Source of the DNA: Acinetobacter rudis
GTDB lineage: Bacteria > Pseudomonadota > Gammaproteobacteria > Pseudomonadales > Moraxellaceae
Direction: 5' to 3'
Assembly: GCF_031157835.1 (NCBI RefSeq)
Contig: NZ_JAVIDR010000007.1
Coordinates: 62,001-126,000 of the forward strand
Length of the DNA stretch: 64,000 nucleotides
Under the pieces are notes generated by a model. The model was not told the DNA's origin. It searched no databases and was given only the letters and a program-made list of their open reading frames with translations. The position numbers and the translations under genes are program-made. Positions 1 through 12,103 of this stretch are shown piece by piece (position 1 is the first letter of the stretch; each line of letters opens with the position of its first letter).

Positions 1-552
1 CAAGATGAGGAGCTGGCAGAACGCATTAACCAATATGTTAGCGCTTTAGCCAATGCTAAACTTATTGATATTGATGCAGATGGTTTACTCAATAGTCCTG
101 TACGTAACACAGAAGATCATAATCAGCTTGCTGTTTTGGCCGCACCTGTTATTCATAGTTTAGAACGCTATTGCATGATGCTTGCGCTCATTACTCAGCG
201 TGGGCCTGGTAATATTTCTACACGTCAAGTTGAAGAACTAAGTCATTTGTTGGGGCAACGTTTATCCGTTCTACATGAGTTCAACTCACCTGAATTTTTT
301 GATAAAGCACTCTTCCAAAGCTTTATGAAAGTTTTAACACAACGCGGCTATATCAGTACTAATGAAGATGGTGGTTTAGTCTTTGACGAAGAGTTCCGTA
401 ATATTGCTAAGTATGCAAACCTAGTCTTGGATGATGCAACTTTACAAATGCTACAACACATTACTTCGTTTACAGATGAAGAGCTAAAAGAAGCACTAGA
501 TGCACTTGCTGCACAAAATGCGAAAAAACGTTTAAAACGCAAGAAAAAGTAA
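1..552 (+). CDS. plsB: Glycerol-3-phosphate 1-O-acyltransferase, C-terminal part
   Basis: The reading frame is open from base 1, so only the last 183 residues are present and the start lies outside the window. PlsB is a membrane-associated enzyme that acylates sn-glycerol-3-phosphate at position 1, the first step of phospholipid synthesis. The fragment has the helical character of the PlsB C-terminus, including the segment LAAPVIHSLERY and a lysine/arginine-rich tail ending in KKRLKRKKK. The acyltransferase HX4D motifs would be upstream and cannot be checked. The identification rests on the pattern of this C-terminus. A strong hairpin terminator follows directly. Confidence 0.8.
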   Translation, partial: QDEELAERINQYVSALANAKLIDIDADGLLNSPVRNTEDHNQLAVLAAPVIHSLERYCMMLALITQRGPGNISTRQVEELSHLLGQRLSVLHEFNSPEFFDKALFQSFMKVLTQRGYISTNEDGGLVFDEEFRNIAKYANLVLDDATLQMLQHITSFTDEELKEALDALAAQNAKKRLKRKKK

Positions 553-556
553 ATTC

Positions 557-590
557 AAAAACGCCTTATTCATTTGAATAAGGCGTTTTT
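557..590. terminator. Bidirectional Rho-independent terminator
   Basis: A perfect inverted repeat with 15-bp arms (AAAAACGCCTTATTC and its complement) closes on a 4-base ATTT loop. It has A-tracts on the left and T-tracts on the right. It lies between the convergent plsB and the secreted-protein gene and can end both transcripts. Confidence 0.9.
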
Positions 591-597
591 CATAGGG

Positions 598-1176
598 CTA
601 TTCTTTTGGTAGTTTTTCAGCCATAAAATGCGCGAAGCTATCTATGTCTGAAAGCTCATTATTTTCATTCGCCGCACCAGATAAATCTCGTACAATTTTC
701 CCTAGACTGCCTTTATTCCCCATCGAAATCTGTTCACCAACCACTAATTTTGCCAGTTCAGCATTTCCTGATTGTAAGGTTGAGCTATACTGTAAAGTAC
801 TGTGTGCATACTTTCCAACAACTTTAGAGCTTATGAACTTAAGTCCTTCACCAGCAAATACTCGGGTCTGTTTGATATCAAAATCAACATAAATTGGCTG
901 CTTGGTTTGTGCTGTTGCAAGCATATTTCTTTGTTTTAATTCATCATTAAGTTTTTCAATATAACGCGCTTTAATTTGATCTTGATTTAAAAAGCTTGGA
1001 GCATCAATCTTACTGTTCAATGTGACGTTCACAGCACGAATAACATACTGTTTGGGCTGTATATTCTCAACAGTATTGCTACTCACATAAGGTTTATAAA
1101 ACTGTTCGGGCTTTGCTTGAGCCAATGTTGTACATAGCAATAAACTTAGAGACAGAATGAATTGTTGATTTCTCAT
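598..1176 (-). CDS. Secreted protein of unknown function
   Basis: This 192-residue protein has a clear Sec signal peptide: MRNQQ, a leucine-rich core and a likely cleavage after TLAQA near residue 21. No cysteine lies near that site, so a soluble periplasmic protein is more likely than a lipoprotein. The mature part alternates predicted strands and helices (YVIRAVNVTLNSK, QPIYVDFDIKQTRVF) and ends in an acidic helix. I do not recognise the family with confidence. The layout recalls small envelope proteins of the DUF4410 type, but that is a guess. The gene stands alone, convergent with plsB, and shares its terminator. Confidence 0.65.
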   Translation of the reverse strand: MRNQQFILSLSLLLCTTLAQAKPEQFYKPYVSSNTVENIQPKQYVIRAVNVTLNSKIDAPSFLNQDQIKARYIEKLNDELKQRNMLATAQTKQPIYVDFDIKQTRVFAGEGLKFISSKVVGKYAHSTLQYSSTLQSGNAELAKLVVGEQISMGNKGSLGKIVRDLSGAANENNELSDIDSFAHFMAEKLPKE

Positions 1177-1343
1177 AATAGTTATTCAATTATCATATAT
1201 TAAATATTATATGGAATTATCCACACTTCCATAATTTAATCAATAATACACAATATGAAATATAATCTGTTTTTTACTTGACCAAATAATCTCAACTATT
1301 GCATGCTGCTTGGTTCTCTACACTTCTAGACTCATTGCAATAT

Positions 1344-2252
1344 ATGAAACTCAGCATTGAAACTCCGCTCATTCATAGCCCTAAATTAAGTCAACTGAAT
1401 CACTGTCAAGTTTGGCTAAAAATGGAATCTAGCCAACCAACAGGGTCCTTTAAACTGAGAAGTATTGGGCGCGCTTGTCAGACACACGCTGAACAAGGCG
1501 CCAAACACTTTATCTGCTCTTCAGGAGGAAATGCTGGTATTGCTGTAGCCTATGCTGCACGTATGCTTAATCTTAAAGCAACGATTGTTGTACCAGAAAC
1601 CACATCAAATAAAGCTCAAGATTTAATTAAACAACAAGGTGCTCATTTAATTGTACATGGCGCTTCATGGGTTGAAGCAAATAGTCTAGCCTTATCTCTT
1701 GTAGATAAAGATAGTGTTTATATTCACCCTTTTGATGACCCACTGCTGTGGGAGGGTGTTTCAGATTTAATTGATGAAGTAATACAAGCTGGCCTTAACC
1801 CAGATGCAGTTGTTTTATCTGTAGGTGGCGGTAGCTTACTCTCTGGGGTTATTCAAGGGCTTGATCGACATAATATTAATATCCCAATTTATGCAGTTGA
1901 AACTGAAGGTACGGCATCCTTAAATGCTGCAATGCAAGCAGGAAAACATATTGCTTTAGAAGAGGTCACAGGAATTGCAACAACACTTGCTGCCAAACAA
2001 GTATGTAAACAAGCATTTGAACTGAGCCAAAATCATCAAGTTCATAGTCTAAAAGTAACAGATCAAGAAACAGTAAGTAGTTGTTTCTCATTTTTAGATG
2101 ATCACCGTACTTTAGTGGAACCTGCTTGTGGTGCTTCACTTTCAATTCTGTATCAACAAAAAATCCAATTCGAGCCACATGAAAACGTCCTCGTCATTGT
2201 TTGTGGTGGTGCTGGAATTGATTTAAAACAACTCACTGCATATACACAGTAA
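1344..2252 (+). CDS. PLP-dependent serine/threonine dehydratase-like protein
   Basis: This is a fold-type II PLP enzyme of the catabolic serine/threonine dehydratase group, 302 residues from the ATG at 1344. The family deaminates L-serine or L-threonine to pyruvate or 2-oxobutyrate. The N-terminus runs ETPLIHSPKLS, then QPTGSFKLRSIG with the Schiff-base lysine at residue 37. The phosphate-binding SSGGNAG loop, a second glycine loop (VGGGSLLSG) and a terminal VCGGAGID follow. An upstream in-frame ATG at 1299 would add 15 residues absent from typical relatives, so I prefer 1344. There is no regulatory ACT domain, which fits a catabolic rather than an IlvA-type enzyme. Substrate preference cannot be read from the sequence. 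Confidence 0.85.
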   Translation: MKLSIETPLIHSPKLSQLNHCQVWLKMESSQPTGSFKLRSIGRACQTHAEQGAKHFICSSGGNAGIAVAYAARMLNLKATIVVPETTSNKAQDLIKQQGAHLIVHGASWVEANSLALSLVDKDSVYIHPFDDPLLWEGVSDLIDEVIQAGLNPDAVVLSVGGGSLLSGVIQGLDRHNINIPIYAVETEGTASLNAAMQAGKHIALEEVTGIATTLAAKQVCKQAFELSQNHQVHSLKVTDQETVSSCFSFLDDHRTLVEPACGASLSILYQQKIQFEPHENVLVIVCGGAGIDLKQLTAYTQ

Positions 2253-2279
2253 AAAAAGAGCGAGCAATTTTTTGCTCGC
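2251..2279 (-). terminator. Rho-independent terminator of the minus-strand arabinose-donor genes
   Basis: An 8-bp stem GCGAGCAA/TTGCTCGC (2260-2279) with a TTTT loop follows the minus-strand gene ending at 2288. On that strand it leads into a T-tract formed by the A-run at 2251-2257. It directly abuts the stop of the plus-strand dehydratase gene. Confidence 0.8.
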
Positions 2280-2287
2280 GATCTATG

Positions 2288-3952
2288 CTAGTTTTTTACT
2301 TTATTAACCGCAGGGCGATAACCTAAAATTGCAGCCTTTTTAAACCAGATTTGTGCCTCTTTTTTATCTTGCTTTAAACCATTTAACCCATGTGAATAGC
2401 TGATGCCAATATTATACATTGCAGCAGCAGAGCCTTGCTCAACCGCTTGATGGTAATAAATTAAAGCTTTTTCACCGTTAGCTTCTACACCAAGACCATT
2501 CGCATACATTACACCTAAGTTATTAGTTGCGTCGGGATCTATTGAGCTTATGGACTTCAATAAACTTAGTGCTTTTTGATAATCAATCTGTATAAATCCA
2601 CCCCGTGTATAGATTAGCGCTAAGTTATTTTTTGCCTGTGGATTTCCTTCAGCTGCCTCAACTTCATACCATTGAATAGCTTTCTCAATATTGTGATCTT
2701 GAATAAAATTGGTTTCCAGTCTCCACCCAGCATTATTTGTACTGACTGAGAATAGTTGTCCTTGAGTTGACGCTTCTAAATTTAGCTTGAGCAAAACCTC
2801 GCTAGGTAAGCGGGTAGTTGCTAAACCACCTGAATTGGCACTATAAATATTCGGTAAAAATCTCACCACGCCAAATGGCCCAACAAATAAACAAATTGCA
2901 GCATATACAATAAAAAAACGTTTGTTTTGTTCAAAATATTCCTTAATTCTAACACCACTTATTTTTTCGGAATTAATTAAATAGAATGTCAAAATAGTTA
3001 TATTAAACAAGGCCAATGCGACCCAACGATAATAGTCAAAAGCAATTAAAGCCAAAGCTAAAGGTGTTAAAGTTGGTATAAGCACATATAATTTAATATT
3101 TTTATAGTAACAATGCTTTAAAAAAGAAAAAACAGGATAAATAAAAATAAAACTTAATATTAAGGGTATATAAGTTTTATTATCGAAGAATGAATAATAG
3201 CTTGATAAAAAATTATCTCTAAAGCTTAAAGTTGTTGTTCTCACAGCATATAAATTAAATTTTTTATCTGCCTGATGTAACTCTACGATATGATTAGCCT
3301 GCGAAATTGAAATTTTACCGAATACCAGCATCAACAGCACTGCCAGTAATAAAAAAGATGACAATAAAATTGTTAAATAAATATTTTTAGATTTAAGATA
3401 GAAAATTAAAATAAGCGTTGGAATAAAAATAATTAAAGAAGCTTCATGAATTAAAGCAGAAAGAACAATAACGACACAAATACAGAGAAATGAAAAAATA
3501 TAATTATTTATTTTTAATGATACATATAAAACAATCAAACTTAAGATTTGTAAAATTTGATCAAACCTACCCAATTCTAGCAACCACTGAGATGTAAAAA
3601 AAGAAAAACTTAATATACATCCCACATATAAGTACAAACCATCAACTTTAACTTTCTTCAAACTTTTTACTAAAAAAACTGAAAAAATAAAAAAGAGAAC
3701 AATATATATAATCAAAGAAATAAAGCGAATTACTTTATAATCATAGGAAAAACCTAACAATGAAATTAACTCACCAATTAAGGCTCTCCTCATAAACCCA
3801 TAGTCATAATTAAACAACCATGATGTATAAAGATAATCATCTATATTTATTTTAAAACTAAAGCCAAATCCATCACTATGAATAAAAATGACCACAATTA
3901 AAATTAAAAATATAAAAAAAGATAATTTTAAAAAAGGCATAGCTAATTTCAT
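2288..3952 (-). CDS. Polytopic membrane protein (GT-C-like) with C-terminal Sel1 repeats
   Basis: This protein has 554 residues in two parts. Residues 1 to about 375 are about ten hydrophobic segments. A short loop after the first segment carries the acidic pair D38-D39 in NIDDYLY, followed by YDYGFMRRALIGE. An early acidic motif in the first outer loop is typical of GT-C glycosyltransferases that use polyprenyl-phosphate sugars. Residues about 415-554 hold three to four Sel1-type helical repeats such as KAIQWYEVEAAEGNPQAKNNLA. The gene overlaps the downstream-facing end of the PAP2 gene by 4 bases, so the two are probably cotranscribed. It is much more AT-rich than neighbouring genes. I infer that it may transfer the sugar made by the flanking pathway, with the Sel1 part docking a partner. 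An unrelated polymerase or transporter role is not excluded. Confidence 0.7.
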   Translation of the reverse strand: MKLAMPFLKLSFFIFLILIVVIFIHSDGFGFSFKINIDDYLYTSWLFNYDYGFMRRALIGELISLLGFSYDYKVIRFISLIIYIVLFFIFSVFLVKSLKKVKVDGLYLYVGCILSFSFFTSQWLLELGRFDQILQILSLIVLYVSLKINNYIFSFLCICVVIVLSALIHEASLIIFIPTLILIFYLKSKNIYLTILLSSFLLLAVLLMLVFGKISISQANHIVELHQADKKFNLYAVRTTTLSFRDNFLSSYYSFFDNKTYIPLILSFIFIYPVFSFLKHCYYKNIKLYVLIPTLTPLALALIAFDYYRWVALALFNITILTFYLINSEKISGVRIKEYFEQNKRFFIVYAAICLFVGPFGVVRFLPNIYSANSGGLATTRLPSEVLLKLNLEASTQGQLFSVSTNNAGWRLETNFIQDHNIEKAIQWYEVEAAEGNPQAKNNLALIYTRGGFIQIDYQKALSLLKSISSIDPDATNNLGVMYANGLGVEANGEKALIYYHQAVEQGSAAAMYNIGISYSHGLNGLKQDKKEAQIWFKKAAILGYRPAVNKVKN

Positions 3953-4389
3953 AGATATCCCCCCAAAAAGCTCTTGATGATTATAGCAACGAATATACCA
4001 ACAACTATTCCAGCGACAATTTCAACTTTACTATGCCCCATACGCTCTCGAAGTGGTTTAACTTCAATATTGTCTTTTACCAGCTGATTAATGAGTACTG
4101 CATGCTGACCTACAGCACGTCTTAAACTATTTGCATCTAATAACACAATAAAACTCAGTGTCAGTGCCACACCAAATGCTGGACTATAAATACCCTCGTT
4201 TAAAACAATTAAAGCAGTCATGCTACTCACTATTGCACTATGATTACTGGGTAATCCACCATAGCCAATCAGCGAAAATGCTAACTTTTTCGCCCGAATC
4301 GAATTAATTAAAAATTTTATACAGCCGGCTGCTAACCACGCCAAAAAAGGAGTAATCAAATAACTATTATTATTCACAACAAAATCCAA
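3949..4389 (-). CDS. Divergent PAP2-family membrane phosphatase (YuiD/COG1963-like)
   Basis: This 146-residue membrane protein belongs to the divergent PAP2 family. The diagnostic stretches are GGLPSNHSAIVSSMTA (residues about 44-59), LDANSLRRAVGQHA, and RERMGHSKVEIVAG near the C-terminus. Together these give the SNHSA and GHS phosphatase-type signatures. In mycobacteria a PAP2-type protein (Rv3807c) is encoded beside the phosphoribosyltransferase Rv3806c. It is proposed to remove the 5-phosphate from polyprenyl-phosphoryl-5-phosphoribose. The same pairing is seen here: the gene lies 4 bases downstream of the UbiA-type gene and overlaps the next gene by 4 bases. The family call is firm; the substrate is inferred from context. 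Confidence 0.85.
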   Translation of the reverse strand: MDFVVNNNSYLITPFLAWLAAGCIKFLINSIRAKKLAFSLIGYGGLPSNHSAIVSSMTALIVLNEGIYSPAFGVALTLSFIVLLDANSLRRAVGQHAVLINQLVKDNIEVKPLRERMGHSKVEIVAGIVVGIFVAIIIKSFLGGYL

Positions 4390-4393
4390 AAAA

Positions 4394-5281
4394 TTAAACA
4401 GCTAATAAAGCCCAAGTACAAATAGCAGCCCAAACCAAAACGGTCATCATGATTTGCCAATCTTGTAAAAGTACATCAGTAGGAGACTCACCACCTTTTA
4501 AAGTTTCAACAATGAACCAATATCGAAATAAACCAAACATGACCAAAGGTATGCTAATGATGAGCTTGGGCTGTACTTGCATAACATAGAGGCTATAAAA
4601 CACAATTGAGCTAATTGCAGACATCTCAGCAAAACGGTCAATCAAAGAGACTGAGTAATATTCAAGTACACCTCTACCCTGAATCCCACTCTCAACCAGC
4701 TCTTGACGGCGTTTAATCGAAGCTAAATACAAAGAAATGCTCAAAGTAGTAATAAACATCCAATCAGAAACAGGAACACTCAGTGCAACAGCCCCTGCAT
4801 AAACTCGCAGCACAAACCCTACAGCAACAACAAATATTTCAATTACAGGTGCATGTTTTAATTTAAAGGTATATGCCCAATTAAGTAATAAATATAATGC
4901 AACCACATAAATAACTTTAGCAGAGATAAACCAAGAAAATGCGAGCAGAATATAAATAACAACCAATAATATAATGGCGCTTTTAGGACTTACAGCACCT
5001 GATGCAAGTGGACGTTTTTTTGATTTTTGTGGGTGAGCCCTATCTTTTTCAATATCTCTTAGATCATTTACAATATATACAGCCGATGCAGCCAAGCAAA
5101 ATACAAAAAATGTAAAAAATGCGGAATAAACTGCATTAATATTTAAAAACTGACTAGAAAATATCAATGGTGCTAAAACAAAGAAATTCTTGACCCATTG
5201 TTTTATCCTAACTAGCTTTATTAATCCATCAAGCTCCACTAGAAATGGGCTCTTCTGTATTATATTATGTATCTGTTTCAT
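4394..5281 (-). CDS. UbiA-family decaprenyl-phosphate phosphoribosyltransferase homologue
   Basis: This 295-residue integral membrane prenyltransferase-fold protein has about eight to nine membrane segments. The first aspartate-rich motif is NDLRDIEKDRAHP, followed by KKRPLASG, as in Rv3806c-type enzymes. These transfer 5-phosphoribose from PRPP to a polyprenyl phosphate, committing it to the D-arabinofuranose donor. The N-terminal LVRIKQWVKNFFVLAPLIFS is also typical of this subgroup rather than of ubiquinone-pathway UbiA. It heads the minus-strand arm of the locus, divergent from gtrA/dprE1/dprE2. The annotated ATG at 5281 leaves only 18 bases to the divergent start. A GTG further in (near residue 15) is an alternative start. 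Confidence 0.85.
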   Translation of the reverse strand: MKQIHNIIQKSPFLVELDGLIKLVRIKQWVKNFFVLAPLIFSSQFLNINAVYSAFFTFFVFCLAASAVYIVNDLRDIEKDRAHPQKSKKRPLASGAVSPKSAIILLVVIYILLAFSWFISAKVIYVVALYLLLNWAYTFKLKHAPVIEIFVVAVGFVLRVYAGAVALSVPVSDWMFITTLSISLYLASIKRRQELVESGIQGRGVLEYYSVSLIDRFAEMSAISSIVFYSLYVMQVQPKLIISIPLVMFGLFRYWFIVETLKGGESPTDVLLQDWQIMMTVLVWAAICTWALLAV

Positions 5282-5299
5282 AAAAATCTAAACTACAAA

Positions 5300-5719
5300 A
5301 TGATTAATTCAATTAAAATTGCAACGTTCTATGGTTTATTTGCCATAGTTGCCACACTCACAAACATATCCACACAGATTATTTCCATGCATTTTTATAC
5401 AGGATTATTCCACATCCAAACCTCAATTATTATGGGAACCGCTACAGGACTTATAATTAAGTACCTATTAGATAAAAAATTTATTTTTAAATACCAAACT
5501 AAAAACCTAAAACATGAATCAAAAGTATTTATTCTCTATCTAATAATGGGAATATTTACTACTTTTATATTTTGGGCTTTCGAATTTGGTTTTCAAATTA
5601 TATATGAAAGTGATGCCATGCGATATTTAGGTGGAGCAATTGGTTTAATTATTGGTTATATATTAAAGTACTTTCTTGATAAATTTTTTGTTTTTCAAAC
5701 GGTTTATTTTTATGAATAA
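5300..5719 (+). CDS. GtrA-family small membrane protein
   Basis: This is a 139-residue protein from the ATG at 5300, with four membrane segments in the GtrA pattern: YGLFAIVATLTNIS at the start, KYLLDKKFIF in the middle and LKYFLDKFFVF at the end. GtrA proteins are linked to moving or organising polyprenyl-linked sugars. Mycobacterial Rv3789, next to dprE1 and dprE2, is of this family, and the gene order here is the same (GtrA, DprE1, DprE2). An in-frame ATG at 5267 would overlap the divergent gene and adds 11 residues with no family support. Its end overlaps the start of the dprE1 homologue by 8 bases, suggesting translational coupling. Confidence 0.85.
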   Translation: MINSIKIATFYGLFAIVATLTNISTQIISMHFYTGLFHIQTSIIMGTATGLIIKYLLDKKFIFKYQTKNLKHESKVFILYLIMGIFTTFIFWAFEFGFQIIYESDAMRYLGGAIGLIIGYILKYFLDKFFVFQTVYFYE

Positions 5720-7019
5720 AATTCAATCATGGGGTAGATTAACAAATAATAAACACAGAGTAATTTCACTCATTAATTCAAATAGTGTTATTAATCAAAT
5801 TAATTTAACTTCAAATAAGGGTATTTCACATGGCATGGGTAGAAGTTATGGAGATGTCGCATTAAATCGGAATAATACAATATGGTTAACAACCCAACTG
5901 AATCATTTTATTTCTTTTAATCTCAAAACAGGCATTTTACAGTGTGAAGCAGGAGTGATATTACAAGATATTCAACGTAGTTTACTGCCTCAAGGTTGGC
6001 TGCTTCCCGTAACACCTGGCACGCAAATGATTACTGTGGGTGGTGCGATTGCCAATGATATTCATGGTAAAAACCATCATCATTTTGGTTCTTTTGGTGA
6101 TCATTTAATTTCAATAAAGCTGGTTCGAACCAATGGTGAGGTTATCAATTGTTCGCGCTTAGAAAATCCAGAATGGTTTTTTGCAACATTGGGTGGTATC
6201 GGATTAACTGGTGTCATCGTTGAAGCGACTCTTCAACTACGTGCAATTGAGGGGGGGTGGATTGAAGCAGAGACTGTTCCCTACTATAGCTTAAATGACT
6301 TTTTCACTTTATCTGATCAGTCTATAGCAGACTGGGAGCATAGTGTTTCTTGGATTGACTGTGTGCAAGGAAAAGAAGCAAACGGCTTATTTATACGTGG
6401 TAATTTTGCTAATCAGCAACATCAATACCCACATCTCCCCACTATTCAAGATAAAACCTTTCCTATTTCTCCTCCTTTTTCTTTAGTTAATCGTTTGAGT
6501 TTACCTCTATTTAATTTTGCCTATTTTCATAACAATAAACGTAAAACAAAAACGCAACGACTTCATTATGAAAAGTTTTTCTATCCATTAGATGCACTTC
6601 AGCAGTGGAATAAAATGTATGGAAAAAAAGGCTTTTATCAATATCAATGTGTAGTACCTCGTCATATCGGCCAAGAGGCAATACATGAAATGCTGAAAAT
6701 CATTAAAAAATCAGGTGAGGGTTCTTTTTTAGCTGTTTTAAAGACTTTTGGAGATCGGGAGTCTGGTGGTCTACTCAGTTTTCCTCGCTCTGGTGTAACC
6801 CTTGCACTTGATTTCCCTAACCGAGGTGACAAAACATTAAAGTTGTTTAATGAATTAGACCGTATCACTGCAGAAGCAGAAGGACGGCTCTATTTAGCTA
6901 AAGATACACGAATGTCTCGTGATTTATTTGAGATGGGTTATCCACGTTTTAACGAATTTTTTAAATATATTGATCCAGGCATAAGTTCAGAAATGTCTCG
7001 TCGTCTATTAGGTGTATAA
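5712..7019 (+). CDS. dprE1: DprE1-like polyprenylphosphoryl-ribose 2-epimerase, FAD oxidase subunit
   Basis: This FAD-dependent oxidoreductase (435 residues from the ATG at 5712) has the vanillyl-alcohol-oxidase fold. DprE1 oxidises the ribose 2-OH of polyprenyl-phosphoryl-ribose to a keto intermediate. The FAD site is visible as SHGMGRSYGDVALN (residues about 37-50) and TPGTQMITVGGAIANDIHGK. The C-terminal end GRLYLAKDTRMSRDLFE...YPR...M-RRL closely follows mycobacterial DprE1 as I recall it. At the position of the benzothiazinone-reactive cysteine (Cys387 in M. tuberculosis) this protein has Ala365, in the stretch GVTLALDFPN. The gene overlaps gtrA by 8 bases and its stop abuts the dprE2 start, so the three genes form one unit. 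Confidence 0.85.
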   Translation: MNKIQSWGRLTNNKHRVISLINSNSVINQINLTSNKGISHGMGRSYGDVALNRNNTIWLTTQLNHFISFNLKTGILQCEAGVILQDIQRSLLPQGWLLPVTPGTQMITVGGAIANDIHGKNHHHFGSFGDHLISIKLVRTNGEVINCSRLENPEWFFATLGGIGLTGVIVEATLQLRAIEGGWIEAETVPYYSLNDFFTLSDQSIADWEHSVSWIDCVQGKEANGLFIRGNFANQQHQYPHLPTIQDKTFPISPPFSLVNRLSLPLFNFAYFHNNKRKTKTQRLHYEKFFYPLDALQQWNKMYGKKGFYQYQCVVPRHIGQEAIHEMLKIIKKSGEGSFLAVLKTFGDRESGGLLSFPRSGVTLALDFPNRGDKTLKLFNELDRITAEAEGRLYLAKDTRMSRDLFEMGYPRFNEFFKYIDPGISSEMSRRLLGV

Positions 7020-7775
7020 ATGTCAAAAAAAATAAAGATTTTAATTATTGGTGCTACATCAACCATTGCTGAACATTGTGCTAGACAATGGCTAAAACAA
7101 CAGCCTTGCGAAATCATTTTATGTAGTCGTAATTTAGAAAAATTGCAACGTGTTAGTCAGGACTTAAAAGTGAGATATCCTGAGGCAGAGTTACATCTAA
7201 AAACACTTAATTTTCTCGATGCTGTAGAAATAGAACAATATATTAATACGCTCTACCAACATCACACCATTGATATTGCGCTTATCGCTCATGGCGTATT
7301 ACCAGACCAAGAAAAGTGTCAAACGAATCTTGAATCATGCCAATATACTATGCAGGTGAATGCGATTTCCCCCCTATTATTTACAGAAACAATCATCAAA
7401 CACATGATAGAAAAAGACCATGGAAAATTGGCTATTATCAGTTCAGTCGCAGCAGATCGTGCTAGAAAATCTAACTATATCTATGGCTCTGCCAAAGCGA
7501 TGATTGATAAATACATACAAGGTCTACAACATCGTTTGGCCCTACTTCACTCATCAGTAGATGTTACTTTAGTTAAGCCTGGCCCAACTGCAACAACCAT
7601 GACACTTGGTATGACTAGCAAAGGAAAACTCGCTTCTGCTGAAGATGTTGCTCAAGATATTGTACAGGCGATTCAAATCAGTAAACCAACACTTTACACC
7701 CCAAGCAAATGGCGTTTACTAATGTTTATTATTCGCCACATTCCTTTCTTTTTATTTAAAAAAATTGATATTTAA
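7020..7775 (+). CDS. dprE2: DprE2-like polyprenylphosphoryl-2-keto-ribose reductase (SDR)
   Basis: This 251-residue short-chain dehydrogenase/reductase has the nucleotide-binding loop GATSTIAEHCA near residue 11 in place of the classic TGxxxGIG. It also has IAHGVLPDQ (the NxAG-like position), a catalytic serine in AIISSVAADR and the YxxxK motif in YGSAKAMID. DprE2 reduces the keto intermediate made by DprE1 with NADH to give the arabinose epimer. The start codon follows the dprE1 stop with no gap, which implies tight coupling. Alone it could be any SDR; its position after DprE1 makes the assignment strong. Confidence 0.85.
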   Translation: MSKKIKILIIGATSTIAEHCARQWLKQQPCEIILCSRNLEKLQRVSQDLKVRYPEAELHLKTLNFLDAVEIEQYINTLYQHHTIDIALIAHGVLPDQEKCQTNLESCQYTMQVNAISPLLFTETIIKHMIEKDHGKLAIISSVAADRARKSNYIYGSAKAMIDKYIQGLQHRLALLHSSVDVTLVKPGPTATTMTLGMTSKGKLASAEDVAQDIVQAIQISKPTLYTPSKWRLLMFIIRHIPFFLFKKIDI

Positions 7776-7835
7776 CAGCTTAATGTACTTCGTATCATTT
7801 ATATCTATAAAGAGACAGTTCATCTATTTATGAAG

Positions 7836-7866
7836 TAAATGAGCACTTTGAGAGGGTGCTCATTTA
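7836..7866. terminator. Hairpin terminator between convergent genes
   Basis: The 11-bp stem TAAATGAGCAC/GTGCTCATTTA has a 9-base loop and is followed on the plus strand by GATTTT. It lies between the dprE2 stop and the stop of the convergent epimerase-like gene and can serve both. Confidence 0.65.
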
Positions 7867-7884
7867 GATTTTAAACACCTTCAA

Positions 7885-8694
7885 TTAACTTAATTCATCT
7901 AAAGCCACTTTATAGTCCGCAAAACAATCAATATGTTTAAGCTGAAAACCAGACTGCTGAAGCCGGGTAGCATAAATCCTCTTTCCTGTGCACACTTCGC
8001 TTTCTAAATTTAACTGTGGCAAAGATAATTGTTGTTGAAACCATTGCAGAGTTAAATGTAGAGGCATGGGCTGTTGGTTGCTTACAATATAACTGGCAGC
8101 ATGAGGTTCCACGTGAAGTAAATATGCAAGAAAAGCTGCTAAATCATTTATATGAATCCGATTCGTCCAATGAATATTGGGATAACTATGGGTCCTTTCA
8201 GCTAACTTACACATTCGTTGAATCGAACGACCATAAATGCCACTTGGACGCACAATAATACTTTGCATTGGATAAGCCATTTGCCAAGCTTGCTCCATCT
8301 TCAACAAAATCTGTCCTTGTGCATCGTTTGGAATAATCACAGTTTCATCATTAATAATTTCACCCTGATGTTCACCATACACACGTGTAGAAGATACAAT
8401 AATGATCCGCTGTATTGGATGCAAAGCAAGTGCTTTGCGCATTGCCGGTATACTGTCAAGAAAACAATCTTGATAGGCTTCTACACTTGAGTTTTCAGGA
8501 CTAAGTAATATATAAACAACATCTATAGGAGAAAGTTCACTTAAATCAAGGGAATGAATATCCTGAATCAGATGATTTGCACCATCAGCAACTTTCGGGC
8601 TACGGCTGATTGTGCTAATTTGGTGACCGTGACCAATTAAATGTTTGGCAACACGTTGTGATGTTTTACCATAACCAATGAATAATATATGCAT
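7885..8694 (-). CDS. NAD(P)-dependent epimerase/dehydratase-like protein (YeeZ type)
   Basis: This 269-residue extended-SDR protein starts with a Rossmann motif in a very short N-terminus (MHILFIGYGKTSQRVA). It then shows SSTRVYGEHQG (residues about 101-111) and RPSGIYGR, the usual sugar-epimerase-like blocks. It lacks a clear catalytic YxxxK, so the activity may differ from true NDP-sugar epimerases. The closest pattern I recall is E. coli YeeZ and similar NAD(P)-binding proteins of unknown substrate. It is divergent from recG, with 35 bases between the two starts. Confidence 0.75.
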   Translation of the reverse strand: MHILFIGYGKTSQRVAKHLIGHGHQISTISRSPKVADGANHLIQDIHSLDLSELSPIDVVYILLSPENSSVEAYQDCFLDSIPAMRKALALHPIQRIIIVSSTRVYGEHQGEIINDETVIIPNDAQGQILLKMEQAWQMAYPMQSIIVRPSGIYGRSIQRMCKLAERTHSYPNIHWTNRIHINDLAAFLAYLLHVEPHAASYIVSNQQPMPLHLTLQWFQQQLSLPQLNLESEVCTGKRIYATRLQQSGFQLKHIDCFADYKVALDELS

Positions 8695-8729
8695 TGCATT
8701 CCCTAGATGACATACGAAGATGAGAGGAC

Positions 8730-10775
8730 ATGGCAGCAGTCCATCAATTAAAAGGGGTTGGTTCAGCCTCTACAGCTTTACTTGAAAAGCTACATATATT
8801 TAACACAGATGATCTACTGTTTCATCTTCCTCGTGACTATGAGGATCGTAGCACGATTATTGCGATGAACCAGTTACAAGTTGGTCGTAGTTATCTACTA
8901 GAAGGAATTGTTAAATCTACTGATTTTCCACCTGGAAAACGCAAATCTATGGCTGTTGCATTACAAGATGAATTCGGCAGCATTACTTTACGTTTTTATC
9001 ATGTTTATCAAGCACTCACTGAACGTGCTAAAGTGGGTAATCGTCTTCGTGTATTTGGTGAAGTCCGAGTTGGTGCTCGTGGCTTAGAAATGTATCATCC
9101 AGAAATGCAAGTTATTACAGCATATACACCACTACCAGATACTCAGCTCACAGCAATTTACCCAAGTACAGAAGGCTTAACTCAACCCAAATTACGTCAT
9201 TATATTCATCAAGCACTTGAGCAATATAGTCATGAGCTAGAAGAGCTACTGCCAAAGCGTTATTGTAATGGTTACGAACTTAAACAAGCCTTACATTATA
9301 TTCACCACCCTCCTGTCGATGCCAATATGCTACAGCTGACACAGGCTGTGCATCCTGCACAACAGCGCCTAATTTTTGAGGAGCTCGTTGCACATCAACT
9401 GAGCTTACTCACTCGCCGAGCTTATATTCAGCATATTCAAGCACCTGCTTTTGCATCAAGTCAAAAATTTGCAGCACAGTTATTACAAAGTCTACCTTTT
9501 GAAATGACTCAAGCTCAAAAGCGTGTGAGTCAGGAAATTGCCAACGATCTTGCACAAAATAAACCGATGCTTCGCTTAGTTCAGGGAGATGTTGGTGCAG
9601 GTAAAACCTTAGTTGCTGGCATTGCTGCCTGTCATGCCCTGGAGGAACACTGGCAAGTGGCGCTGATGGCCCCTACTGAGATTTTAGCGGAACAGCATTA
9701 TTTAAATTTTAAAAAATGGTTTGAGCCTTTAGGAATCAAGGTGGTGTGGTTAGCAGGTAAGCAAAAAGCCAAACAACGTGCAGAAGCAGAAACACAAATC
9801 AAAACTGGTGATGCTCAACTTATTGTAGGTACTCATGCCCTATTTCAAGAACATGTGGAATTTCATAAATTAGGCTTAGTCATTATTGATGAGCAACATC
9901 GTTTTGGTGTTGATCAACGTTTAGCATTACGTAATAAAGGACAAAACAATACAACACCTCATCAACTTGTCATGACAGCAACCCCAATACCACGAACACT
10001 TGCAATGTCTGCCTATGGCGATTTAGACACGTCGGTAATTGATGAGTTACCTCCCGGACGAACACCCATTCAAACGGTCACTATTCCTTTAGATCGTCGT
10101 GAACAAGTATTAGCACGTATTGCAACAAACTGTGGTGAAGGGAAACAAGCCTACTGGGTGTGTACTCTCGTGGAACAGTCTGAAACTTTAGATGCACAAG
10201 CAGCAGAAGCAACATTTACAGATATTCAAACTCGTTATCCTGATCTAAAGATTGGTTTAGTCCATGGCAAAATGAAAGCGGATGATAAGCAAAGTGTCAT
10301 GCAGCAGTTTAAGAATAATGAACTACAATTATTAATTGCAACCACTGTAATTGAAGTTGGGGTTGATGTACCCAATGCTTCAATTATGGTGATTGAAAAT
10401 GCTGAACGTTTAGGACTCTCTCAATTACATCAATTACGTGGTCGTGTTGGACGAGGCGCTCAAGCCAGCTTCTGTGCTCTGCTTTATAAGTATCCACTAT
10501 CGCAAAATGGTCAGGAACGTCTCAGAATTTTACGTGAAAGTAATGATGGTTTTGTTATTGCAGAAAAAGATCTTGAGATTCGAGGTCCAGGCGAGCTTCT
10601 AGGTACGAAACAAACAGGTGATTTAGGTTTTAGAGTTGCTAAACTTGAACGTGACCAACACTTGCTTGATCAGGCGCATCAGGTCGCAGGAAAAATTTTG
10701 GCTGAACATCCAAATCAAGTCGAAGCACTGCTTAAACGCTGGTTGCCACAAGCACCTCGCTATGCCTATGTTTAA
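8730..10775 (+). CDS. recG: ATP-dependent DNA helicase RecG
   Basis: This 681-residue superfamily 2 helicase remodels stalled forks and Holliday junctions. It has an N-terminal wedge/OB domain (residues about 1-230, beginning with LKGVGSASTALLEKL). Helicase motifs follow: Walker A GDVGAGKT, motif II DEQH in VIIDEQHRFGVDQR, motif III MTATPIPRTLAM and motif VI QLRGRVGRG. The C-terminal RecG signature EIRGPGELLGTKQTG is present. Length and domain order match the family. The start ATG is preceded by GAGAGGA at a suitable distance. Confidence 0.97.
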   Translation: MAAVHQLKGVGSASTALLEKLHIFNTDDLLFHLPRDYEDRSTIIAMNQLQVGRSYLLEGIVKSTDFPPGKRKSMAVALQDEFGSITLRFYHVYQALTERAKVGNRLRVFGEVRVGARGLEMYHPEMQVITAYTPLPDTQLTAIYPSTEGLTQPKLRHYIHQALEQYSHELEELLPKRYCNGYELKQALHYIHHPPVDANMLQLTQAVHPAQQRLIFEELVAHQLSLLTRRAYIQHIQAPAFASSQKFAAQLLQSLPFEMTQAQKRVSQEIANDLAQNKPMLRLVQGDVGAGKTLVAGIAACHALEEHWQVALMAPTEILAEQHYLNFKKWFEPLGIKVVWLAGKQKAKQRAEAETQIKTGDAQLIVGTHALFQEHVEFHKLGLVIIDEQHRFGVDQRLALRNKGQNNTTPHQLVMTATPIPRTLAMSAYGDLDTSVIDELPPGRTPIQTVTIPLDRREQVLARIATNCGEGKQAYWVCTLVEQSETLDAQAAEATFTDIQTRYPDLKIGLVHGKMKADDKQSVMQQFKNNELQLLIATTVIEVGVDVPNASIMVIENAERLGLSQLHQLRGRVGRGAQASFCALLYKYPLSQNGQERLRILRESNDGFVIAEKDLEIRGPGELLGTKQTGDLGFRVAKLERDQHLLDQAHQVAGKILAEHPNQVEALLKRWLPQAPRYAYV

Positions 10776-10787
10776 CTCATAAAAGCT

Positions 10788-10814
10788 GACCTGTTTAAGC
10801 CTCTACAACAGGTC
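10788..10814. terminator. Hairpin terminator after recG and the VOC gene
   Basis: The 8-bp stem GACCTGTT/AACAGGTC has an 11-base loop, with AAAAGCT to the left and TTTCAC to the right. It overlaps the stop codon of the convergent VOC-family gene. The flanking T-runs are short, so efficiency is uncertain. Confidence 0.6.
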
Positions 10815-11217
10815 TTTCACCTAATACTTCAACTAAACGTAGTAAATAACCATCAGGATCTTGCACAAGAAACTGCCGTTGACCATGCTCTATTTGATCT
10901 GCACGATACCAACGTTCTTCTGGCTCAGCAAAAAGTGGCCAATGAGCAGCAGATAATCGATTCAAAATAGGTGCTAAGGCCAATACTTCAATTTGAAAGT
11001 TAATACCACGTCCTAAAGGTGCTTCTAATGCTGCTGTAATCCATTGACCTTCCTGAACTTGTTCAAGCATAAATTGCACACCATGAAGATCGAGATAGAT
11101 GAAATCTTCTTCAACGCGTTCATAGCTCAGCTCAAAACCAAGGTAATCTATCCAAAAGACTTTACTGGCAGCAAGATTACTCACGATGAGTTCTGGAACC
11201 AATTTATTATATTGCAT
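10795..11217 (-). CDS. VOC-family (glyoxalase/bleomycin-resistance-like) protein
   Basis: This 140-residue protein has two paired beta-alpha-beta-beta-beta modules. The N-terminal module runs KLVPELIVSNLAASKVFWIDYLGFELSYE. The C-terminal one ends with HGQRQFLVQDPDGYLLRLVEVLG, where DPDGYLLR is the usual last-strand signature. Members include bleomycin-binding proteins, glyoxalases and dioxygenases. The true function cannot be told, and drug binding should not be assumed. It converges on recG. Confidence 0.8.
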   Translation of the reverse strand: MQYNKLVPELIVSNLAASKVFWIDYLGFELSYERVEEDFIYLDLHGVQFMLEQVQEGQWITAALEAPLGRGINFQIEVLALAPILNRLSAAHWPLFAEPEERWYRADQIEHGQRQFLVQDPDGYLLRLVEVLGERPVVEA

Positions 11218-11239
11218 GGTGCTCTGTTATCCTGATCAA

Positions 11240-12103
11240 CTAAGATAATGTAGTACACATTTTCACATTATTTTGTAAAATTCTTAATAACTTTTCAGCA
11301 TTGGCATCGCCTTGCTGAGCTGCCTTTTGGAACCACTGTTCTGCTTGAGCACGATTGGTACTTAATCCATTTTTGCCATAACAGTTGTTTAATCCCAAAT
11401 TAAGTTGTGCGTCTTTATTTCCCTGTTGAGCTGCTGCCAAATACCATTGATTCGACAATTTAGGATTTTTATCCAACCCCATTCCCTCTTGGTACATTAC
11501 AGCAAGGTTAAACTGAGCAACAGCAAACCCATCTTCAGCAGCTTGGCTATACCAATAAAATGCCTTTTGATAATCTTGTTTGACAAGCTGCCCCTGATCA
11601 TACAAAAAACCGAGTTTCAAACGCGATTCATTAGAGCCTAATGCCGCAGCCTGTTCCAACAAAGAAATTGCTTTAGCCATATCTTGTTCACCACCCATCC
11701 CTTGTTCATACAAATAGGCCAAGCCTCGTATTGCTTCACGATCCCCTTGATCCGCTGCCTTTTGAATATATTGACGGGCTTTTAATGCATTAATACTTGT
11801 CCCTTGCCCTTGCTGATACATAAGGCCTACATTCAGTAAAGCTGTTGCATTACCCTTTGCCGCAGCTTTTTCAAACCACTTTAAAGCCTGAGCATAGTTT
11901 TGCTGTACACCATCACCAGTATAATAACGTCCTGCTAAATTGAACTGTGCCTGCTGATCGCCTTTACGTGCCTTGTGTTGTAATTCAACAAAGTCCCATT
12001 GCGGCGTCACAGCCCAAGCAAACTGCATCCATATAGATAATCCAAAAATAATGAGCAGTTGTTTTCGCATTTTTTTCATATCTAAACTGACCAATTTTAA
12101 CAT
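11240..12103 (-). CDS. Secreted Sel1-repeat protein
   Basis: This 287-residue protein has a signal peptide in the first about 31 residues (KQLLIIFGLSIWMQFAWA) followed by about six Sel1-type repeats of 36 residues, each with the A-x-x-x-Y/L-x-x-G-x-G pattern (for example FNLAGRYYTGDGVQ). Sel1 repeats form an alpha solenoid that binds other proteins, here in the periplasm. The ATG at 12103 has AAGGTG just upstream and overlaps the end of the preceding gene by 7 bases. An ATG at 12079 also leaves a good signal peptide. It forms a two-gene unit with the secreted protein upstream. Confidence 0.8.
   Translation of the reverse strand: MLKLVSLDMKKMRKQLLIIFGLSIWMQFAWAVTPQWDFVELQHKARKGDQQAQFNLAGRYYTGDGVQQNYAQALKWFEKAAAKGNATALLNVGLMYQQGQGTSINALKARQYIQKAADQGDREAIRGLAYLYEQGMGGEQDMAKAISLLEQAAALGSNESRLKLGFLYDQGQLVKQDYQKAFYWYSQAAEDGFAVAQFNLAVMYQEGMGLDKNPKLSNQWYLAAAQQGNKDAQLNLGLNNCYGKNGLSTNRAQAEQWFQKAAQQGDANAEKLLRILQNNVKMCTTLS

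Follow-up and report, generated by a model that had tools for sequence, protein, structure and literature searches.

A predicted D-arabinofuranose donor cassette with a candidate GT-C-like transferase in Acinetobacter

D-arabinofuranose is known above all from the walls of mycobacteria, and a six-gene Acinetobacter locus that resembles the mycobacterial route to this sugar raises the question of what the locus makes, whether it brings a transferase of its own and which surface molecule receives the sugar. We analysed it within a stretch of 64,000 nucleotides (the window). A sequence-only reading had described six adjacent genes in two divergent arms, and all six open frames are present at that place, between window positions 2288 and 7775 (ORF list; Table 1). 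We give about even chances to the reading that these genes make polyprenyl-phosphate-D-arabinofuranose and transfer its arabinose to an acceptor, likely type IV pilin, outside the inner membrane. If true, the well-studied genus Acinetobacter would gain a surface-sugar modification and the GT-C superfamily a new family.

The minus arm runs from the centre outwards through ubiA, the DUF212 gene and the polytopic gene, with neighbours overlapping or spaced by 4 bases, and likely ends at the terminator-like hairpin that follows; terminator-like sites in the region number 5, against 2.9 ± 1.8 in shuffles. Two genes of the plus arm likely start inside their longest frames, gtrA (open from 5267) at ATG 5300 and dprE1 (open from TTG 5676, i.e., 5676-7019) at ATG 5712. 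With this gtrA start only 18 bases separate the start codons of ubiA and gtrA, so that the two arms are probably regulated together. Promoter-like matches in the region are no more numerous than in shuffles, and Rfam gives nothing at gathering score in window 1-12000. The PALP gene at 1299-2252 was considered as a cassette member and rejected: homologues turn up in 24 of 175 genomes (E 1e-60), and among these 24 loci only those of the window's genome (G000) and G125 have the gene beside the cassette. At the edge of the window (1-552), the ORF listed from 136 forms the tail of a far longer frame, 868 aa in the genome, which is probably plsB.

Table 1. Features of the locus in window coordinates, with the evidence for each
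Feature	Position	Strand	Evidence
Terminator-like hairpin	2260..2279	-	Stem of 8 pairs and a run of T, directly beyond the polytopic gene
Polytopic protein, 554 aa; predicted D-arabinofuranosyltransferase	2288..3952	-	GT-C-like membrane domain (about residues 1-392) and C-terminal Sel1 repeats
DUF212 (divergent PAP2) protein; predicted 5'-phosphatase	3949..4389	-	PF02681 E 1e-34; TTG start; 4-base overlap with the polytopic gene
UbiA-type polyprenyl-phosphate phosphoribosyltransferase	4394..5281	-	8j8j_D E 2.6e-37; PRK12324 E 1.8e-62, below cut-off
18-base gap between divergent start codons	5282..5299	.	Sequence and start codons
GtrA-family protein; predicted lipid-linked-sugar flippase	5300..5719	+	PF04138 and NF037976, over cut-off
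DprE1-type FAD oxidase	5712..7019	+	Solved DprE1 E 6.5e-70; NCBIfam DprE1 4.2e-102, below cut-off
DprE2-type short-chain reductase	7020..7775	+	PF00106 over cut-off; NCBIfam DprE2 2.1e-47, below cut-off

That the locus encodes a D-arabinose donor pathway is very probable and well supported by sequence comparison. Its phosphoribosyltransferase, DprE1 and DprE2 belong to the same families as those of the mycobacterial decaprenyl-phosphate-arabinose pathway (Rv3806c, Rv3807c, DprE1, DprE2, Rv3789). Profile searches, which the sequence-only reading had proposed, matched the donor proteins to the expected families, and its assignments of UbiA (as Rv3806c), GtrA, DprE1 and DprE2 held. The UbiA protein aligns with the mycobacterial decaprenyl-phosphate phosphoribosyltransferase 8j8j_D, the metal-binding stretch ND..D..D included, and the PRK12324 model that it matches below cut-off bears that enzyme's name. 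The DprE2 protein scores better with an unnamed short-chain reductase model, PRK07102 (3.9e-70, also below cut-off), than with the DprE2 model. The phosphatase is indeed of a PAP2 type, namely the divergent one, but the claimed likeness to Rv3807c is loose: plain PAP2 reaches only E 0.11 (Pfam), and the window thus has a DUF212 phosphatase where the mycobacterial pathway has a plain PAP2. The lipid is probably undecaprenyl, unlike the mycobacterial decaprenyl. A GtrA-family gene lies beside dprE1 in Mycobacterium, as it does in the window. An alanine of the window DprE1, shared by all 8 Acinetobacter DprE1 aligned, stands opposite the cysteine of mycobacterial DprE1 that is the target of covalent inhibitors.

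The predicted product of the donor enzymes is polyprenyl-phosphate-D-arabinofuranose. In the proposed route the DUF212 protein would remove the 5'-phosphate, DprE1 would oxidise C2 and DprE2 would then reduce it, converting ribose into arabinose. The lipid-linked sugar would be flipped by GtrA, and the GT-C protein would move arabinofuranose to the acceptor outside the inner membrane, its C-terminal Sel1 repeats probably holding the acceptor or a partner protein. Gene content, homology, linkage and predicted fold are computed here, and from such data we infer every chemical step, which lipid is used, in which direction the sugar is transferred and what accepts it.

Surveyed across Acinetobacter, as had been suggested from the sequence, the five donor-side genes occur together in every phosphoribosyltransferase-bearing genome (11 of 11, among 175), a co-occurrence that exceeds chance. 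In one genome (G035, L021:9368-10689) dprE1 is split into two open frames of 297 and 134 aa, which reflects a sequencing error or a disrupted gene. By itself the donor cassette is not new, since its divergent layout is widespread in Proteobacteria. In 80 named loci, the best 80 among at least 494 DprE1 relatives and some of them truncated by contig ends, tblastn finds DprE2 in 79, UbiA in 73, GtrA in 33 and DUF212 in 26. The layout of the window, with ubiA divergent from dprE1, is found in 33 of these 80 loci (UbiA 52-74% identical, DUF212 in 26, GtrA in 23, all five genes in 19) and a colinear one in 40 (UbiA 26-43%, DUF212 in 0, GtrA in 6); 7 have no UbiA match. DprE1 relatives also occur in 71 plasmid records, all below 60% identity; plasmid records gave no match to the GT-C domain and phages none to DprE1. 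The donor pathway is known outside mycobacteria from the pilin systems of P. paraeruginosa and P. syringae (PMC12369383), and three-component pentofuranose systems have already been described (PMC11127046). Titles and abstract openings in the open-licence PMC literature gave no account of this pathway in Acinetobacter, and the available main text of PMC11127046 does not mention the genus.

The novel part is the cassette-linked GT-C-like polytopic protein, which the sequence-only reading had left unnamed and to which a fold model and a genomic linkage can now be attached. Its C-terminal Sel1-repeat domain (E 3.2e-23, Pfam) filled the match list of a whole-protein fold search, and the membrane domain was therefore folded alone (pLDDT 86.7, pTM 0.90). 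The model superposes on structures that are nearly all GT-C enzymes, including arabinosyltransferases and the protein-glycosylating Pmt, OST and PglB, whereby families missing from the superposition set are not excluded as relatives. All Foldseek matches of the domain lie above E 0.001, and the viral structure library gave the protein no match under that value. The domain matches no glycosyltransferase family of Pfam or NCBIfam, and the candidate transferase is unlike the mycobacterial Emb/Aft enzymes in sequence, as a PDB search matched only Sel1 chains. In 8 of 8 sequences from three genera, F47, Y49, G52, F53, R56, R129-F130-D131, H169-E170, D306 and R309-W310 are invariant.

The distribution of the GT-C domain follows that of the donor genes. 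It occurs in 10 of the 175 Acinetobacter genomes, all among the 11 with the phosphoribosyltransferase, and each GT-C gene adjoins its cassette; the eleventh genome, G057, lacks the protein. Among 299 genomes of the family it was found in 9, i.e., 7 Acinetobacter already known to carry it and two members of other genera, G312 and G175, whose homologues lie inside DprE1/DprE2 cassettes (profile comparison 99.5% and 99.0%). Donor genes are thus present at all 12 homologue loci, and pairwise distances of the GT-C domain correlate with those of UbiA, DprE1 and DprE2 (r 0.94-0.95, 11 genomes), as for genes travelling together. Given the GT-C-like model and the linkage in 12 of 12 fetched loci, the cassette probably brings its own transferase, and model and linkage together make the polytopic protein a likely dedicated D-arabinofuranosyltransferase of the cassette. 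The cassette would then be self-contained, combining donor synthesis with a candidate transferase, in 11 of 175 Acinetobacter genomes as counted by the phosphoribosyltransferase, and members of this transferase family occur in two other genera of the Moraxellaceae.

Several observations concern the relatives of this protein. Sel1 repeats are present in 7 of the 12 homologues (G000 by Pfam; G125, G104, G072, G010, G017 and G105 by alignment) and absent in 5 (G103, G312 and G175 by Pfam; G035 and G171 by protein length). Two protein-database searches, which scored the best 7998 and 7997 candidates by shared words, include A. haemolyticus, A. courvalinii and A. vivianii among their matches. The homologue of G175 (L242:5242-9937) lies between a HAD phosphatase gene and ubiA, so that the HAD protein appears to replace DUF212 there. 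In G103 the GT-C gene is followed by that of a second polytopic protein of 486 aa (L019:4800-6260) with no Pfam, NCBIfam or PDB match, possibly a second transferase; homology between the two proteins was not established.

Is the acceptor a type IV pilin? The sequence-only reading had noted that no pilin gene is adjacent, which is borne out: a prepilin-motif scan of the 64-kb window found none, and the pilA of this genome lies on contig C16 with a PglL/TfpO-type partner gene, while the cassette is on C54. Likewise, for 11 of the 12 GT-C homologues the surrounding 17-20 kb contain no prepilin motif, and a scan of the 80 named DprE1 loci gave a single motif that looks genuine (L154) besides a chance one (L137). 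Against this stand four lines of evidence from relatives. In G312 the GT-C homologue converges on a Pfam-confirmed pilin gene, with adjacent stop codons, and a pilin-like remnant lies past dprE2. In G057 the cassette is flanked by pglL and a pilin gene, with TfpX/TfpZ and a second GT-C-like protein encoded alongside. The pilin locus of G072 holds a second phosphoribosyltransferase, a relative of the GT-C-like protein of G057 and an AftB relative. In G510, from another family of the order (L244:7173-16186), pilA, a GT-C-like gene, a phosphoribosyltransferase, an unlabelled membrane gene, DprE1, DprE2, a HAD phosphatase and a further polytopic gene are consecutive and adjoin genes resembling pilBCD (named by eye), likely a complete pilin-arabinose operon. 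The separate pilA and the pilin-free surroundings weighed against these four lines leave the pilin with an evenly balanced chance of being the acceptor. The pilA of the window's genome (L071:10059-10568) encodes a threonine-rich C-terminal tail that was not seen in the other pilins compared and is a possible site for sugars.

The same donor pathway and transferase could instead modify a surface polysaccharide (LOS or capsule) as a periplasmic side branch, similar to the Citrobacter O-antigen pentofuranose systems. Three-component systems are described mostly for O-antigens, and those that add arabinose include DprE1/E2 (PMC11127046); the window's cassette lies away from pilins in a genome whose pilA has another ligase. 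No O-antigen or capsule gene was seen by eye beside the cassette, however (window's first 14 kb, ORF lists L012-L021), and together with the pilin-linked cases of G312 and G057 this makes a polysaccharide acceptor possible but rather improbable. Less probable still is another exported protein, picked by the Sel1 repeats. Sel1 and TPR repeats are protein-binding folds, and Pmt, OST and PglB among the superposed enzymes glycosylate proteins, but the cassette has no candidate acceptor protein linked to it, and five of the 12 homologues lack the repeats. Finally, the lack of a glycosyltransferase family match and the Foldseek values would agree with the polytopic protein being a helper, e.g., in donor export, with the donor serving an unlinked enzyme, a reading made very unlikely by the GT-C superpositions, the identity of the charged motifs in all eight sequences and the different GT-C-like protein that G057 has in its pilin locus.

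The arabinosylation of pilin by a cassette-borne transferase would parallel, but not repeat, the P. paraeruginosa TfpW system with its island RGP80. Donor genes of one kind are present in both Gram-negatives, together with a GT-C transferase in P. paraeruginosa and a predicted one here, and the acceptor there is type IV pilin (PMC12369383 and PMC11841053). In P. paraeruginosa the transferase is encoded next to pilA, and the island carries the donor genes; in the window a probably different GT-C-like protein is encoded in the donor cassette, at a distance from pilA. A TfpW-like query of 629 aa has no match in G000 at E 0.01. The pilA-adjacent GT-C-like proteins of G057, G072 and G510 share with the window protein a polytopic build, a long C-terminal region and the same donor pathway. 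Their group includes P0082 (646 aa, labelled Pseudomonas aeruginosa group), which its label suggests may be TfpW and which as a query matched 1 of 390 order-wide genomes (G510). GRFD and (K/H)E patterns appear in the weak overlap between this group and the window protein, and homology was not established (hhalign probability 22-23%). Homology was likewise not established with the relative of mycobacterial AftB in G072 (L075:9195-10829; PDB E 3.5e-11, NCBIfam 1.1e-14, far below cut-off), which is found in 1 of 175 genomes. The GT136 systems of Citrobacter youngae O1/O2 resemble the predicted window system in having a UbiA-type synthase acting from PRPP, a flippase and a periplasmic GT-C transferase (PMC11127046). 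Their synthase, however, carries a fused HAD phosphatase and their flippase is of MATE/EmrE type, where the window has separate DUF212 and GtrA proteins plus DprE1/DprE2. We tentatively suggest, as a wider reading that may well prove too broad, that the GT-C protein founds an unrecognised Moraxellaceae family of D-arabinofuranosyltransferases which travels with the donor genes as a six-gene unit, arabinosylates type IV pilins independently of TfpW and, in one branch, selects the acceptor through an arm of Sel1 repeats. In P. paraeruginosa, pilin arabinosylation reportedly makes the cells resistant to pilus-specific phages (PMC12369383), and assays of D-arabinofuranosidases on the pilin sugars of PA7 have been reported (PMC10115798).

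The genes had been called markedly AT-rich, suggestive of acquisition. The cassette is low in total GC (0.330, where downstream stretches of 5.5 kb have a mean of 0.396 with sd 0.012), but at third codon positions its GC of 0.21-0.28 does not differ from the 0.22-0.27 of three neighbours; low GC was therefore rejected as proof of acquisition. The acquisition itself finds its support in the surroundings. The cassette occupies differing sites across Acinetobacter lineages, and among the other ten cassette genomes only G125 has the window's flanking genes. The site was surveyed in 30 loci that hold the upstream gene, 29 of them from relatives and one from the window itself. In 18 this gene is followed by a homologue of the gene at 7885-8694 and recG, which leaves no space for the cassette; 1 further locus has recG alone, 3 have the 7885-8694 homologue further off, and 7 are uninformative. 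Together with the varied sites of the cassette, the empty sites in relatives point to its gain in one piece by the lineage of G000 and G125, or else to its loss elsewhere, and the empty site argues better for insertion than the low GC does.
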